A stretch of 55,836 bases of DNA from an uncultured Spirochaetaceae bacterium (lineage in GTDB: Bacteria; Spirochaetota; Spirochaetia; Sphaerochaetales; Sphaerochaetaceae): NCBI GenBank assembly GCA_945910645.1, contig CAMDZB010000005.1, forward strand, positions 1-55,836, given 5' to 3'. The number at the start of each line of letters is the position of its first letter. The first letter of the stretch is position 1. Below the pieces are notes generated by a model, which searched no databases, was not told the DNA's origin, and worked only from the letters and a program-made list of their open reading frames with translations. This document shows, piece by piece, positions 28,741 through 45,782 of this stretch. A program made the position numbers and the translations under genes.

Positions 28741-28898
28741 TTCCTGGATGGCACTGCGAGTTTAAGGCTCAGGTCAGGAATAGCACATACCTGCGAGTTT
28801 GAGCGATTATTATTGGATGATACGTACCTAGCGAGTTTGAGAGATTATTATTGGATGATACGCATCTAGTGATTTTAAGACTCGGGATGGCACTGTGA
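28741..28898. repeat. Degenerate tandem repeats
   Basis: The stretch between the rluB terminator and the structured element is made of degenerate units starting G(C/T)GAGTTT. The clearest pair is two adjacent 38-bp units, 28793-28830 and 28831-28868, differing at three positions. Weaker units begin near 28755, 28869 and 28895, and GGATGGCACTG occurs twice (28746 and 28886). The last unit grades into the 5' strand of the structured element. No ORF is present, and repeats without unique spacers exclude a CRISPR array. Confidence 0.75.
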
Positions 28899-29016
28899 GT
28901 TTGATATTCGGGATGAATAACGAGGAAGCAAACCTAGCCCTAACGCAGGACATACCTTTGTGGTAGGCCAAGTGGGCTATGGTGCAGGTGACAAAGTTAG
29001 ACGCCCGAGATCAAAC
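28899..29016 (+). ncRNA. Structured RNA-like element, copy A (family unknown)
   Basis: Nested helices: GTTTGAT/ATCAAAC (28899-28905 with 29010-29016), CGGG/CCCG (28909-28912 with 29004-29007), TAAC/GTTA (28918-28921 with 28996-28999), and TAGCCC/GGGCTA (28935-28940 with 28974-28979). These enclose a near-invariant core, GGACATACCTTTGTGGTAGG, with a TACC/GGTA hairpin. Copy B keeps every helix, with the inner one changed to CCGCCC/GGGCGG by compensatory substitutions. A shared tail (CCCGCAGATTCA) continues to about 29037. It lies 100 nt upstream of clpB, but a possible clpB promoter lies in between. The strand is inferred from the downstream genes. Confidence 0.7.
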
Positions 29017-29045
29017 GAGCCCGCAGATTCAACGAGCAAAAAAAA

Positions 29046-29073
29046 TTGGCATGAAATTTGCATGTAATAGATT
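29046..29073 (+). promoter_or_regulatory. Candidate clpB promoter
   Basis: TTGGCA (29046-29051), 16-nt spacer, TAGATT (29068-29073). It is followed by a 12-bp direct repeat (TTAATGTACGAG twice, about 29072-29095) that could be an operator, then GGGAGG before the ATG. No CIRCE element is seen. Confidence 0.42.
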
Positions 29074-29115: not shown

Positions 29116-31260
29116 ATGAACAACAACAATTACTACAACAATAATACAAACGAGGAGCAGTCGCCACTACAGCGCTTCTGCCGCAACCTAACAGAGGAGG
29201 CACGTAAGGGAAAGCTCGACCCTGTGATCGGACGAAACGATGAGATTCGCCGTGTGATAGAGGTGCTATCAAGACGTACTAAAAACAACCCAGTGCTGAT
29301 CGGTGAACCGGGAGTTGGTAAAACCGCAGTTGTTGAAGGATTATCGCTTCGTATCGCATCAGGAGACGTGAGTGACTCACTTAAGGATAAGGATATCATG
29401 GCGCTTGATATGGGTGCACTTGTGGCAGGAGCAAAGTACCAGGGCGAGTTTGAGGAGAGACTCAAGGGCGTGATTAATGCCGTTCAGGAATCGGATGGTA
29501 AAATCATACTCTTCATTGATGAACTTCACACAATAGTTGGCGCCGGAGCTGCAGGCTCAGGAGGACAGGGCGCAAGCGATTTACTCAAGCCTGCCCTTGC
29601 AAGAGGCACCCTACATGCAATCGGTGCAACAACGCTTGATGAATACAGAAAATATATCGAAAAGGACAAAGCGCTTGAGAGACGTTTCCAGCCGGTTTAT
29701 ACAGGTGAGCCTAGCGTTGAGGATAGCATAGCCATACTTAGAGGCCTTAAAGAGAAGTATGAAGTGCACCACGGTGTTAGAATCACAGACGAGGCTATTA
29801 TCGCTGCTGTAACACTATCAGAACGCTACATTACAAACAGATTCTTACCGGATAAGGCAATAGACCTTGTTGATGAGGCTGCAAGTAAGCTTAAGATTGA
29901 ACTTGAAAGCCAGCCGTCTGAACTTGACAGCGCAGAGCGTAAACTACTGCTCCTATCAATCGAGAAACAGGCGCTATCAAAAGAGAAGGATGAAAAGTCA
30001 AAAGAGAAGATGAAGAAACTCGAGAGCGACATCGAGGAATGCACCAAGAACCGCGATGAACTTAAGGCAAAGTGGCTTGAGGAGAAAGAGGTGATTTCAT
30101 CAATCCAGAAGGCTAAAAAACGCTTAGATGAGCTCAAAACAGAAGAGAATATCGCCATGAGAGACGGTGAACTATCAAAGGCTGCAGAGATAAAGTACGC
30201 CAAGATGCCAAAGGCAGAGGAAGAGCTTAAAACCTTAAGTGACAAGATGAAAAAGCAGGGTCACGGTGCGCTTTTAAGGGAGGAGGTGCGCGAGGATGAT
30301 ATTGCAGAGGTAGTGGCAGCATGGACTGGCATTCCTGTATCAAAGATGCTCTCATCTGAGAAAGAGAAGTACATCAAGCTTGAGGAGATTCTAAAAGCGC
30401 AGGTTGTGGGGCAGGATGAGGCCATAAAGAGCGTCGCTAATGCAATCAGACGTAATAAAGCAGGCGTGAGCGATGGAAATAGACCTATGGGTACATTCCT
30501 ATTCCTCGGTCCTACAGGAGTTGGTAAGACTTACCTTGCAGAGACGCTTGCTGAATTCCTGTTCAATACCAAAAAGGCACTTACGGTAATCGATATGAGC
30601 GAGTACATGGAAAAGCACTCAGTCTCAAGGCTTATCGGTGCGCCTCCAGGATATGTGGGATATGAGGAAGGCGGTCAGCTTACAGAAGTGGTGAGAAGAC
30701 GCCCATACTCTGTGATCCTCTTTGATGAGATTGAAAAAGCCCATAGCGACGTGTTTAACCTGTTTTTACAGCTGTTTGACGAGGGAAGACTCACAGACGG
30801 TCAGGGAAGAACAGTTGACTTTACCAACACAATCATCATCATGACGAGCAACCTTGGAAGCAGTGAAATACTTGAGGCTGCAAACGAAACGGATGCAAGA
30901 AACGCAGTTCTTGAAGAGGTAACAAGGGCGTTTAAGCCTGAGTTAATCAACAGAATCGATTCGATTGTAGTCTTCAACAGATTACACGAGAAGGAGCTTT
31001 CTGAGATCGTTAACTTACAGCTTGAAAAGCTTAAGGCAAGGCTTCTTTCGAAGAACATCGAGATTTCGTGGAACGAGAGCGTAAACAAGGCCATCCTTTC
31101 ATCAGGACTCGACCTTGAATATGGAGCACGCCCGATTAAAAGGGCAATACAGAACCTTGTTGAGAACCCGCTTGCCACAGCCATTGTAAGCGATGAGGTG
31201 TCGGACGGGGATAAGGTTAAACTCTCATACACCAAAAACGGTCTTAAGATCGATAAATAA
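29116..31260 (+). CDS. clpB: ClpB-type disaggregase lacking the N domain
   Basis: AAA+ chaperone that, with DnaK, extracts proteins from aggregates. The 714-residue product opens with an Asn/Tyr-rich stretch of about 12 residues and goes almost directly into the first ATPase domain (Walker A GEPGVGKT near 60, Walker [14 protein letters not shown] near 135). A coiled-coil middle domain at about 275-400 marks ClpB rather than ClpA or ClpC. The second ATPase domain has GPTGVGKT near 475 and [10 protein letters not shown] near 540. The substrate-binding Clp N domain is missing; the length matches the short ClpB form made elsewhere by internal initiation. The strong GGGAGG site fixes the start. 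Confidence 0.9.
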
Positions 31261-32980: not shown

Positions 32981-33580
32981 TCAGTCAATTTTAAACGTCA
33001 AACGATGGTAAGGTGTATAGCCGTACCTTTTTATTTTATCAATGTGATCGGCAGTTCCGTATCCCTTATGCTTTTCAAAGCCGTAGAGAGGGTAGCGGTG
33101 AGAGAGAAGCTTCATGAACTTGTCACGCTCTGTCTTTGCAAGGATGCTTGCTGCCATTATCTCAGGAATTTTACTGTCGCCCTTCACAATGGCTTCAACG
33201 GTTATTCTATTTTGCGAAAACAATGGGTTATCCATCTCTTTTAGAAATGTTGGAATGCGATTGCCATCAACCATAAAGTGTAGGTTTTTAATATCAGTTT
33301 TTTGAAGTAGTACGTCTGTGGCTCTCTCCATTGCAAGAAAGGTTGCGTTTAGGATGTTTATAGAGTCTATGGTTTTATTGTCAACAAATCCGATGCCCCA
33401 GATTGCCTTTCCCTTTATGATTGGAGTAAGTTCATCCCGCTTCTTTTCGCTGAGCTTCTTACTGTCGTTAAGACCGTCTATCATAACGCCCTCGGGGAGG
33501 ATAACAGCGGCTGCCACAACAGGACCTGCAAGCGGACCTCTTCCTGCCTCATCTATACCAACTATAACTGATTTACCCAT
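32981..33580 (-). CDS. rnhB: Ribonuclease HII
   Basis: Endonuclease that removes ribonucleotides from DNA and RNA primers. About 199 residues, normal for the family, with VGIDEAGRGPLAGPVVAAAV at the N-terminus carrying the Asp-Glu metal ligands, a further Asp in VDGNRIP near 105, and GYGTADHI near 180. I chose the ATG at 33580 because it gives the family N-terminus. A promoter (TTGAAT, 17 nt, TAGCGT) ends 7 nt upstream, predicting a leaderless message; a 30-residue upstream extension to 33670 is rejected. The 5' region is duplicated at 34486-34575. Confidence 0.92.
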   Translation of the reverse strand: MGKSVIVGIDEAGRGPLAGPVVAAAVILPEGVMIDGLNDSKKLSEKKRDELTPIIKGKAIWGIGFVDNKTIDSINILNATFLAMERATDVLLQKTDIKNLHFMVDGNRIPTFLKEMDNPLFSQNRITVEAIVKGDSKIPEIMAASILAKTERDKFMKLLSHRYPLYGFEKHKGYGTADHIDKIKRYGYTPYHRLTFKID

Positions 33581-33650
33581 TTCTTTTACGCTAATGTTAA
33601 ATCTCCAATTATTCAATGTCGTTTGTGAATTTTCTTTATTTTTTGCACTT
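33576..33650. repeat. 75-bp direct repeat, rnhB-proximal copy
   Basis: This segment covers the rnhB start codon and promoter. It recurs at 34501-34575 with 73 of 75 identical positions. The two copies bracket the toxin-antitoxin pair, with a repeat unit of 925 bp. Confidence 0.9.
33588..33616 (-). promoter_or_regulatory. Promoter for a leaderless rnhB mRNA
   Basis: On the minus strand, TTGAAT (33611-33616), 17-nt spacer, TAGCGT (33588-33593), then 7 nt to the ATG at 33580. Confidence 0.55.
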
Positions 33651-33673
33651 ACGCTGATGAATGACGACATGAT

Positions 33674-34485: not shown

Positions 34486-34575
34486 TTGGAGCAAGTTCAT
34501 CCCATTTCTTTTACGCTAATATTAAATCTCCAATTATTCAATGCCGTTTGTGAATTTTCTTTATTTTTTGCACTT
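34486..34575 (-). pseudogene. Deleted fragment of rnhB with its promoter
   Basis: Bases 34486-34503 match an internal rnhB segment (33421-33438) with one change, and 34501-34575 match 33576-33650 at 73 of 75 positions. Relative to rnhB, 140 bp are missing between the two parts, at a junction where both sides read CCC. The scrap keeps the rnhB promoter (TTGAAT and TAGCGT) but no coding capacity. It directly precedes the promoter region of the alcohol dehydrogenase gene. Confidence 0.85.
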
Positions 34576-42513: not shown

Positions 42514-43665
42514 TTATACAAAACTTTCAAGTTGTTTATAGTTTTCAAATGTTCCAAGTGCTCTAAAGTTTATTTCATACGTTCCGTCTTCATACTTATT
42601 TAATTGGACGGTATCTATTCCTATCTGTTCTAGCTTATCATAGGTTACAAGTTCATTTTCGTGAAGATTTAATACATCTCTCAATATCCATTTACCTAGG
42701 TCCTCATTAGGATTAGTCATAAGAGCTTTACTGTTATCTTGGCATACTTTAGCCATTTTAAAACTTCCATTAGGTAAGTGTAGTGTAAAACTTTCATCTC
42801 TTTTGGGGAAGAAGTCTGGTTTATGTTTATTTATCTCTGCTGGTATCGGTATATATACTTCATTTGGCTTACGTTCTCTACCCCCTGCATTCCATTGATT
42901 TAATCCACTTTTTTTAGGTACAATTTTGTTTCGAGTTCCTCTCTCGTAGGAATATAACGGCAGATACAGAGTATCAATAATATGATTACTTGTATCAGCT
43001 TGAAACTCGTCTGACAGATATTTTTCAAGCAAGTCAAAAGGGTCATCAAATATTCTTACAGGTATTGTATGAATAGGTACAATATTAAACCGTTTAAACA
43101 ACGTACTCTTGGATATATTGAAGCAATATTCTTCTATACCGTCAGTAAAAGCAACAGTGTTACTACCTGTAGATTTTAATAATGTAAGATTATCTGTATT
43201 TATCAATCGCATTGGTTCTTCATGTAAATATAATACAGAGTCAGCTCTAGTAACGCAATGATAAATTAAGTTATCGGTAGGTATTGAACACATACCACAA
43301 GTAGATGTAATACGCTTATTCCTCAATAATGAAATTTTTTGAATTAAGACATCTGGATTAGTAATTGAGTCAACGTATAAATGACGTTCTCGGTTAAACT
43401 CTGCAACTTTTTCCAAACAATGACCATTCTTATGTAGGAAAGTTTTAAGCCCTATACCGCATGTAGCCTTACTAGCATCTATTGATATATCAGAGCGTGA
43501 TAAATTCTTTGCTGTAAAAGCTCTGCAAAATATATTCTCGGCCATTCTATAATACACATATGGTACAGTTGAACTTTCAGCAGAGAGTCTTGACAAAGCT
43601 GCAACAATCCTTAGCAATAATTCATATTTTGTCTGTTCATCTCTTGATTGAAGTTCAAAAAACAT
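42514..43665 (-). CDS. Type II restriction endonuclease with NgoAVII/BfiI-like B3 DNA-recognition domain
   Basis: A 383-residue protein cotranscribed with a cytosine-5 methyltransferase. Residues about 268-375 (VYIPIPAEINKHKPDFFP, FTLHLPNG, KVCQDNSKALMTNP, LGKWILRDVL) match the C-terminal B3-like DNA-binding domain of NgoAVII-type enzymes. The N-terminal half lacks the H-K-D motif of their phospholipase-D-type nuclease. Instead it has SIDASKATCGIGLKTF near 61-76, where Asp63 and Lys74 could belong to a PD-(D/E)xK site (inference). Base composition is far more A+T-rich than its neighbours. The ATG overlaps the methyltransferase stop by one base. Confidence 0.75.
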   Translation of the reverse strand: MFFELQSRDEQTKYELLLRIVAALSRLSAESSTVPYVYYRMAENIFCRAFTAKNLSRSDISIDASKATCGIGLKTFLHKNGHCLEKVAEFNRERHLYVDSITNPDVLIQKISLLRNKRITSTCGMCSIPTDNLIYHCVTRADSVLYLHEEPMRLINTDNLTLLKSTGSNTVAFTDGIEEYCFNISKSTLFKRFNIVPIHTIPVRIFDDPFDLLEKYLSDEFQADTSNHIIDTLYLPLYSYERGTRNKIVPKKSGLNQWNAGGRERKPNEVYIPIPAEINKHKPDFFPKRDESFTLHLPNGSFKMAKVCQDNSKALMTNPNEDLGKWILRDVLNLHENELVTYDKLEQIGIDTVQLNKYEDGTYEINFRALGTFENYKQLESFV

Positions 43666-44618
43666 TATTCTGCTTCCTCTAATACTTGCATGATGTTTTT
43701 TGCAATAGCATTAACAACGGGTACTGATACACTATTACCTATTTGCTTGTATAGTTCTGATTTAGGTAAGTTGTCTGGCAATTTATAATTATCAGGAAAA
43801 CCCTGAAATCTAGCACACTCTCGAGGAGTTAATTTCCTTATATCTTGCTTCTCATCTATAATAAGTGGAACATTGTGTCCTCCAGTACCCATATTTGCTG
43901 TCAACGTTGGACACAGATTATTCTTGTTCTCTCTTACATAAATACGTCTCCACTGATAAATTGTATTAGGATTAGTCATCTCATTTTTTAATTGTGTATA
44001 ATACTTGCTATTCTTATATGAAAACTCCTCTGAAACATTTTTTTCAAGTAAAGCTCTTATACTTCTTGTTTTCTTGACAGGTTGAGGGAACTTAAATTTT
44101 TCAGCCAGTGCTTTATCTTGAAAACACACTATATATATTCGCTCTCTGTTTTGGGGTACATCTGAATACTTAGCAGTATTTAAAACATTTGATTTAATAT
44201 AATAGCCAGACCTTGTAAGTTCTTTTTGTATTACATTGAAAGTCCTACCATTATCATGAGCTGTAAGATTTTTAACATTTTCAAGAAACACTACTTTAGG
44301 TTGTAATATCTCTATGTAGCGTAATATATCGAAGAACAAATTGCCTCTATCATCTTTAAACCCCTTGCGATAACCAGCAATAGAAAATGCTTGACAAGGA
44401 AATCCACCTGTTAATATATCAATAGGTGGTAATTCATGAGGGTCAAGCTCTTTCATATCCTTGTTAATAAGTAAGTGTTTAAAGTTCTTGGAATAGGTTA
44501 CACATGCTTTTTCATCTATTTCATTTGCCCATGTTAATTCAAATCCAGCTTCTTGGAAACCAAGTCCAATTCCACCTATTCCTGCAAATAATTCCCCTAC
44601 ACGATACTTCTTTGTCAT
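43665..44618 (-). CDS. DNA cytosine-5 methyltransferase of a type II R-M system
   Basis: A 317-residue C5 methylase with all main motifs: FAGIGGIGLGFQEAGF (motif I, AdoMet), GGFPCQAFSIAG (IV, catalytic Cys), FLENVKNL (VI), QNRERIYIV (VIII), ECARFQGFP (IX) and IGNSVSVPVVNAI (X). The short region between motifs VIII and IX suits a simple recognition sequence, which I cannot name. It protects the host from the endonuclease encoded just downstream. Strongly A+T-rich codon use and its isolation between MATE and cmk indicate horizontal transfer. A promoter ending 6 nt before the ATG predicts a leaderless message. Confidence 0.92.
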   Translation of the reverse strand: MTKKYRVGELFAGIGGIGLGFQEAGFELTWANEIDEKACVTYSKNFKHLLINKDMKELDPHELPPIDILTGGFPCQAFSIAGYRKGFKDDRGNLFFDILRYIEILQPKVVFLENVKNLTAHDNGRTFNVIQKELTRSGYYIKSNVLNTAKYSDVPQNRERIYIVCFQDKALAEKFKFPQPVKKTRSIRALLEKNVSEEFSYKNSKYYTQLKNEMTNPNTIYQWRRIYVRENKNNLCPTLTANMGTGGHNVPLIIDEKQDIRKLTPRECARFQGFPDNYKLPDNLPKSELYKQIGNSVSVPVVNAIAKNIMQVLEEAE

Positions 44619-44924: not shown

Positions 44925-44976
44925 AATATTCGGGATTGAGATACTAGGAAGCCAGACTCGGGCGAAACAAAAGCGA
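44925..44976 (+). repeat. Degenerate partial copy of the element's 5' part
   Basis: GAATATTCGGGATTGAG, then TAGGAAGCCAGACTCGGGC, parallels the opening of element B (GATATTCGGGATGCATAAC, GCGAAAGCAAACCCG) with many changes. It resembles the degenerate units before copy A. Confidence 0.5.
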
Positions 44977-45093
44977 GTTTGATATTCGGGATGCATAACG
45001 CGAAAGCAAACCCGCCCCAAACGAAGGACATACCTTTGTGGTAGGCCAAGTTGGGCGGGTGCAGTTGACAAAGTTAGGCACCCGAGATCAAAC
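44977..45093 (+). ncRNA. Structured RNA-like element, copy B (family unknown)
   Basis: Same fold as copy A: GTTTGAT/ATCAAAC (44977-44983 with 45087-45093), CGGG/CCCG (44987-44990 with 45081-45084), an extra TGC/GCA pair set (44992-44994 with 45078-45080), TAAC/GTTA (44996-44999 with 45073-45076), and a perfect 8-bp ACCCGCCC/GGGCGGGT (45010-45017 with 45053-45060). The core GGACATACCTTTGTGGTAGG is identical to copy A. A shared tail continues to about 45120. It lies in the predicted leader of cmk, which makes a cis-regulatory role possible; a processed small RNA is the alternative. Confidence 0.72.
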
Positions 45094-45146
45094 GAGCCAA
45101 AGAGATTGCCCGCAGATTCAGCGAGCCAAAGAAGGAAGGAGGAAAT

Positions 45147-45782
45147 ATGATAGTAGCAATAGACGGCCCTGCCGGCAGTGGTAAAAGCACCATCGCAAAG
45201 TTAATTTCAGAAAAATTCGGATTTTTTAACCTAAACAGCGGTGAGTTCTACAGAGCGTTTGCATACGAGCACCTCCAAAAAGGTCGCAGCCTCGAAAGTA
45301 AAAGCGATATCGACGAGTCCCTCAAAGACATAGTTCTCTCCCTCAATGGCGATGACATCCTCATCAGTGGCAAAAAGGTTGAAAAAATACTCCTACACAC
45401 AAAAGACGTGGACAACGCCTCATCAATCCTCTCTGTGGAGATTCCAGTGCGAATGAGGGTCAACGAACTCCTTCGTGAAAGCATAAAGGGGCGCAACATC
45501 GTATGCGAAGGACGTGACATCACAAGCGTGGTCTTCCCGAATGCAGAGCTCAAGATCTACCTTGATGCAAACCTTGAAGAGCGTGCCAAGAGACGTGCAA
45601 CAGAACGAGGTGAAAATCAGGGCGAAATCGCGCTATCCCTAAAGGAAAGAGATGATCGCGACATCAATAAAACATTTGGAGGGCTAAAAAAAGTGGAAGA
45701 CGCCACTGTTATAGATACAACTTACTTGACGATAAATGAAGTTTTTAATAAAATTAGCACGATGGTAGAAATGTGCCTTTAA
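45147..45782 (+). CDS. cmk: Cytidylate kinase
   Basis: Phosphorylates CMP and dCMP. The 211-residue P-loop kinase has MIVAIDGPAGSGKSTIAK at the N-terminus, NSGEFYRAFA in place of the common D/N-S-G-A-x-YR, VCEGRDITSVVFP near 115 and a lid with RAKRRATERGE near 150. A strong GGAGG precedes the ATG. It is followed after 36 nt by rpsA, the arrangement found in many bacteria. The long structured leader upstream may control both genes. Confidence 0.9.
   Translation: MIVAIDGPAGSGKSTIAKLISEKFGFFNLNSGEFYRAFAYEHLQKGRSLESKSDIDESLKDIVLSLNGDDILISGKKVEKILLHTKDVDNASSILSVEIPVRMRVNELLRESIKGRNIVCEGRDITSVVFPNAELKIYLDANLEERAKRRATERGENQGEIALSLKERDDRDINKTFGGLKKVEDATVIDTTYLTINEVFNKISTMVEMCL

Follow-up and report, generated by a model that had tools for sequence, protein, structure and literature searches.

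A lineage-restricted dispersed hairpin element tied to gene 3' ends in a spirochaete and a related genus

Integron attC sites are imperfect palindromes of 57-141 nt that lie directly after a stop codon and fold on the strand antisense to the gene. The element that we describe here is likewise a palindrome that follows stop codons and folds better on the antisense strand. It shares with the MITE-like palindromes ERIC/RU-1, RU-3 and RUP a length of about 100-130 bp, a near-palindromic sequence and an intergenic, non-coding location. It also resembles the REP/BIME repeats of the GTAG and CGTC families, which are multicopy, extragenic and hairpin-forming, frequently abut or overlap stop codons, and form mosaics and clusters (PMC3733652). 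Some GTAG REPs supply the stop codon themselves (PMC3733652), and, as read from the sequence, the element likewise provides the stop codon at C13:23125 and C4:50518, two loci in the genome from which our analysis started. Finally, the element is similar to the orphan structured-RNA motifs (PMC8040213, PMC2864571) in being supported by covariation with no function assigned. It belongs to a lineage-restricted and previously unlisted family of dispersed structured hairpins, with a total of about 80 copies in one spirochaete and one related genus.

Two copies in the window and their surroundings

The window, meaning the whole 55,836-nt stretch of DNA analysed here, comes from an uncultured Spirochaetaceae bacterium (assembly GCA_945910645.1, contig CAMDZB010000005.1; genome G000 below). 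It carries two copies of the element, A and B, in the following setting:

28793..28868, + strand: two 38-nt tandem units beside copy A, left-half mosaic repeats that start with the element's end sequence GCGAGTTTGAG and lack the remainder
28897..29019, + strand: hairpin element copy A, type I, with the outer stem GTTTGATATTCGGG / CCCGAGATCAAAC; CGAG ends the 3' side
28948..28969, + strand: invariant tip module of copy A, GGaCaTACC(TTTGT)GGTAgGCC
29019..29036, + strand: GCCCGCAGATTCAACGAG, a fragment of a related repeat (its right end), next to copy A
29116..31260, + strand: clpB-like ORF 3' of copy A, context outside the element; its best matches in a search of genome contigs are spirochaete MAGs
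44975..45096, + strand: hairpin element copy B, type I, with a GC-rich inner stem; 98% identity to G000:C13:3870-3992
45026..45047, + strand: invariant tip module of copy B
45147..45782, + strand: cytidylate-kinase-like (cmk) ORF 3' of copy B, context outside the element; name read from the translation only

A first-pass annotation had reported a fold common to two segments of the window, and we could confirm it, with real limits that are slightly wider (28897-29019 and 44975-45096). Each copy is a single long rod-like hairpin interrupted by internal loops. The "at least four helices" of that annotation are there if each run between internal loops is counted as a helix, but they are stacked in one unbranched hairpin. 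Copy A has a folding energy of -43 kcal/mol (z -4.30) and copy B one of -51 kcal/mol (z -6.69), and in neither case did any of 200 shuffles do as well. The copies are 89% identical across their first 80 nt. The core, which had been described as unchanged between them, is indeed so and forms the hairpin tip, and the paired change from TAGCCC/GGGCTA to CCGCCC/GGGCGG is also present, with pairing kept. A near-copy of the GCCCGCAGATTCAACGAG fragment follows copy B at 45108-45125. The annotation had matched the fold to no known RNA family, in agreement with an Rfam search of the window that returned nothing at gathering scores except tRNA. Searches of Rfam 15 with other copies, at E values up to 5 or 3, gave tRNA and two weak unrelated matches below the cut-offs, with no match to the element.

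We also considered whether the element is a cis-regulator in the 5'-UTRs of clpB and cmk, the first option that the annotation had offered. Both copies are in the sense orientation, and the start codons lie about 97 nt 3' of copy A and about 51 nt 3' of copy B, as would suit such a role. However, the sole promoter-like site between copy A and clpB (29046-29073) is 3' of the element, and matches of this sort are no more frequent than expected by chance; therefore, copy A need not belong to the clpB transcript. The downstream genes share no common pathway, and the family is found mostly at gene 3' ends, opposing the neighbouring gene. Regulation of this kind is thus highly improbable, and the copies at clpB and cmk may have no role in those genes. 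No terminator (a GC-rich hairpin followed by a U tract) was found around copy A, and near copy B a few matches to the terminator consensus are present, none of them formed by the whole hairpin.

Elsewhere in the window, directly 5' of copy B, a minus-strand ORF (43665-44618) reads like a C5 cytosine DNA methyltransferase, and the minus-strand ORF that adjoins it (42514-43665) may be its partner and could encode a restriction enzyme. Positions 33576-33650 and 34501-34575 hold a direct repeat of 75 bp with 97% identity. Its copy at 33576-33650 is the predicted N-terminal part of an RNase HII-like ORF (minus strand, 32981-33670), which suggests a partial gene duplication or a misplaced start.

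The family in the window's genome and in relatives

Searches combined with individually retrieved stretches gave about 22 copies in the 1.15-Mb genome, on both strands, A and B being two of them. All are extragenic except the one at C13:2716, which overlaps the 3' end of a predicted ORF. At G000:C13:2714-2836, the element would supply the stop codon and the C-terminal residues, about 30 of them, of an ORF that enters it. The hairpins are 121-124 nt long with CGAG at both ends. Type I copies have the stem GTTTGAT..ATCAAAC with CCCGCCC/GGGCGGG or relatives, type II copies have GTTGAAT..ATTCAAC with a different inner stem, and the copies at C3:9547 and C1:119156 are chimeras of the two types. Five copies are 5'-truncated at one common junction, between CGAG and CCCCAAACG or close variants, and neighbouring repeats have the element's ends with another middle. 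Copy B is 98% identical to the contig C13 copy at another locus and has therefore multiplied recently; much of the family in this genome looks like a recent repeat expansion. Across 14 full-length copies from the genome, covariation is 0.243, compared with 0.112 +/- 0.014 in shuffled and at most 0.061 in slid controls, which bears out the compensatory changes proposed from A and B.

Contigs C13, C1 and C3 of G000 hold further nested intergenic repeats that have the ends GCGAGTTTGA...TCAAACGAGC or adjoin the element, ...AAGCCTAAGTCGCAGGTTCCTGATGCC... being an example, and an AT-rich unit (AAATCACTGTGTCCATATAAGAAATTATTC...) occurs three times in C13:2900-3850. At G000:C1:56100-58500, an ATPase-like gene has the hairpin element and a second palindromic repeat (TATAATAAATTTACGTCACTTTTTACAAAAATTT) on both sides, in a cassette-like arrangement.

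The covariance-model search of relatives that had been suggested recovered the family in the window's genome and in the sister genus g8. A search with the core pattern found two genomes of the same family with an intergenic tip and the same rod fold, and a small model extended the finding to g8. A second model, R2, whose 18 input copies were all from g8, identified 57 strong full-length hairpins in eight of the 11 g8 genomes (species), with E values from 1e-25 to 4e-6. The remaining three g8 genomes had no family copies by R2, and neither did the two further members of the window's genus or 20 more genera of its family, except for a single marginal match (G014, E 0.016). In a sample of 393 genomes from the phylum, searched with the stricter filters that apply to large searches, only the window's genome matched. 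Since R2 matches window-type copies at the tip only (E about 0.005) and the copy on contig C16 at full length, the two groups are related but diverged. This C16 copy, which lies beside tRNA-Gly, was considered as a founder gene and rejected: it is the most g8-like copy (24.4 bits, E 0.003 with the g8-only R2), and its better score with a further model, R3, is circular because R3 includes it. We also rejected a phage origin, as none of the matches that viral contigs gave in three exact-pattern scans takes up the element's fold, and both matches of the first scan lie within coding sequence. At G091:C305:530-796, three tandem copies about 102 nt apart, one of them without the tip, follow a DksA-like gene; their unit length equals the hairpin length.

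Conservation, placement and strand

In g8, the hairpin spans about 103 nt; its median length is 104 nt, and it keeps close to this value while the outer stem varies by site. The covariation alignment of 61 rows was fitted to the structure and is therefore somewhat favoured by it, a bias guarded against by slid controls and by the independent alignment of 14 copies from the window's genome. In the 61 rows, 88.8% of cells are paired (79-97% across helices), covariation is 0.651 compared with 0.203 +/- 0.010 shuffled and 0.059-0.129 slid, and both sides have changed in 354 cells compared with 121 in shuffles. The conserved tip is GACA-[4 bp]-UNNNU-[4 bp]-GGC, and the tip stem itself covaries (TACC/GGTA, GTGC/GCAC, GTAC/GTAC and GTCC/GGAC); in the window's genome the invariant core, written as RNA, is GG-A-C-A-UACC(UUUGU)GGUA-G-GCC. 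The G·A-rich internal loops GA/GA and RUGA/GAAR are conserved as well and stay mismatched while the stems vary (G·A in 16 of 17, A·G in 16 of 17 and T-A in 15 of 17). At the orthologous rpsI site of six species the hairpin is retained with 16 of its 36 pairs altered on both sides, and the outer stem in g8 is locus-specific (score 9.9, compared with 4.2 for swapped partners). The simplest account of the tip, loops and pairing being kept in old copies is per-site functional constraint in g8.

Pairing might instead be kept by palindrome-correcting template switching during replication rather than by selection. Template switching is known to create and repair stems, and both paired changes and a longer outer stem could arise from it in the absence of selection (PMC8794818). 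The outer stem does copy coding sequence, as expected of a nascent strand folding back on itself, and template switching may explain how it came to do so. However, template switching would also remove the conserved G·A and A·G mismatches together with the bulge of the tip, yet all of these persist, and as the reason for the kept pairing it is very unlikely.

Genes in g8 were called with a simple purpose-written codon model. By these calls, 48 of 56 copies have an antisense gene on their 3' side; counted by distinct gene ends, this is 32 of 37 (p 7e-6), with five distinct sites breaking the rule. In 45 of those 48 copies, the stop codon of the antisense gene falls between -2 and 15 nt from the end of the model, whereas distances to the 5'-side gene spread from 16 to 329 nt. 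The outer stem reaches the stop codon in 39 of 44 cases and coding sequence in 29. In the window's genome, 16 of the 21 copies with a 3'-side gene point against that gene, and the copies at clpB and cmk are among the five exceptions. That the position before essential or stress genes, to which the first-pass annotation had drawn attention, is meaningful is thus not supported. We therefore take the element to be a dispersed structured hairpin of gene 3' ends rather than a leader regulator of clpB or cmk. Where present at rpsI, it lies between the stop codon and the terminator, and the rpsI site is empty in three g8 genomes that lack the family. At the 3' end of the aldolase gene (fba) its orientation is opposite between species (G087 versus G079 and G073), through independent gains or inversion.

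Of the 57 g8 copies, 56 have a displayed strand that folds more stably as RNA than its complement does (mean -45.6 versus -37.4 kcal/mol), and all 57 do so as DNA. G·U cells outnumber A·C cells by 42 to 26, or by 32 to 10 when each similarity cluster is represented by a single copy, a modest excess (bootstrap ratio 1.03-2.6). Together these results favour the displayed strand, for RNA and single-stranded DNA alike. The annotation had held that many copies in unrelated positions on both strands, without expression, would point to a DNA repeat. Copy number and strands do point that way, but orthologous sites covary and the fold is asymmetric between strands, which argues for a structure that matters at each site. 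Of its three proposals, a dispersed structured repeat came closest, whereas a cis-regulator does not fit a family placed mostly at gene 3' ends; its overall interpretation is thus partly supported.

Two close rivals have to be set against our own model of a border element. In one, the complement would fold in the sense mRNA, after the stop codon of well-expressed genes, and block 3' exonucleases or uncouple the next gene, as REP/BIME do. Stop-codon anchoring is natural for such a role, the sense transcript of rpsI should include the element, and even the less stable strand averages about -37 kcal/mol. The abutting genes include GroEL, ribosomal S9 and L27, IF-1, PGK, aldolase, GrpE, glutamate dehydrogenase (GDH) and AsnRS, and also OTC, IlvE, YchF and rubredoxin. 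However, in all but one of the 57 copies it is the sense strand that folds less stably, its stems hold more A·C than G·U cells, and a plain stabiliser requires no conserved tip or loops, so that we consider this explanation possible but rather unlikely.

In the other rival, the hairpin would have no cellular function: it would be a non-autonomous mobile element whose single-stranded DNA folds and is mobilised by an enzyme with a preference for gene 3' ends. The 98%-identical copies at separate loci, the clusters, the subtype chimeras, the single truncation junction, the CGAG ends, the tandem copies 102 nt apart, the patchy occurrence in two genera and the equal strand asymmetry of the DNA fold are all in its favour. 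However, profile searches of the window's genome for Y1 transposase (Y1_Tnp) and reverse transcriptase (RVT_1) found none, and the g8 Y1 genes that were retrieved have no element beside them; mobilisation by IS200/RAYT or a retroelement was rejected on these grounds. Inert copies should decay, yet old orthologous copies retain tip, loops and pairing, and the outer ends in g8 vary by site and so offer no common end for an enzyme to recognise. We regard a purely mobile element as unlikely.

Since the favoured strand opposes the abutting gene, our preferred model, held tentatively and at rather less than an even chance, is a hairpin at gene 3' ends that serves as a border (or 3'-end) element in RNA made in the direction opposite to that gene, with a repeat expansion in the window's genome. 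That the hairpin is read in this opposing RNA is the function we favour, and we hold it weakly. The folded strand would be the one opposing the abutting gene, and the element would work in RNA of that direction or, less likely, as single-stranded DNA. A protein may read the tip and loops, and the hairpin would limit transcription or RNA that reaches the gene from the opposite side. As for the window's genome, the family multiplied there as a non-autonomous repeat that exchanged halves and became nested with repeats that have the same ends, and many copies there, perhaps including A and B, may be passengers. The departure of copies A and B from the main placement rule counts against the border model. 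So do the opposite orientations at the aldolase gene, the five sites that break the orientation rule, the small size of the G·U excess and the possibility that template switching made the paired changes. Promoters upstream on the folded strand in g8 show no excess over shuffles. The most frequent type of site, with 31 copies, has no sense gene leading into the element, so that RNA of the folded strand would there have to come from antisense read-through. A new gene-border RNA class is a more specific and quite doubtful possibility, in which a fixed-length hairpin would have the last codons and stop codon as one base arm, fold in the opposing RNA, and recruit through its conserved tip a factor that stops transcription, antisense or convergent, at the 3' edge of the gene.

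The interspersed palindromes of bacteria are commonly regarded as decaying DNA repeats. Here, however, orthologous gene-end copies keep their fold by paired changes, the host stop codon lies in the stem, and one strand is favoured. Two questions thus become open to direct test: does a per-site function keep dispersed extragenic hairpins in place, and do genes have a structured 3' border that acts on RNA of the opposite strand?

Comparison with known systems

An intrinsic terminator was rejected, since there is none at copy A, no consistent U tract follows the hairpin on the sense side in g8, and at rpsI a separate terminator lies downstream. Identity with attC was also rejected, the geometry being the wrong way round: attC conserves its base (the R boxes) and varies at the tip, whereas our element keeps its tip constant and lets the base vary. 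The R-box pair RYYYAAC...GTTRRRY is absent, as the base is variable in g8 and has the order GTTTGAT...ATCAAAC in the window's genome, and while attC sites stand in cassette arrays, the element is dispersed beside single chromosomal housekeeping genes. MITE-like palindromes differ in that the g8 elements have no common terminal inverted repeats and show strong per-site covariation. Common ends and a CGAG direct repeat occur in the window's genome and not in g8, and no target duplication (for which there was no close empty-site pair) or cognate transposase was found. The orphan RNA motifs are set apart by the lack of a match in Rfam 15, a comparison that covers filed families only.

As with REPs, the element is multicopy and extragenic near gene ends. 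However, a REP is a stem-loop of 20-40 bp, compared with the median of 104 nt in g8 and the 121-124 nt of the window's genome. REPs carry a GTAG or CGTC tag, whereas the element has CGAG ends in the window's genome and no common end in g8. REPs are linked to a Y1 transposase (RAYT), of which there is none in the window's genome and none in association with the element at the retrieved g8 Y1 loci, and unlike REPs the element has a conserved tip and internal loops. It thus differs from REPs, attC sites and terminators on the features tested, and we file it as a new variety of dispersed extragenic hairpin element, one that behaves like the extragenic palindromic repeats and in part resembles them.
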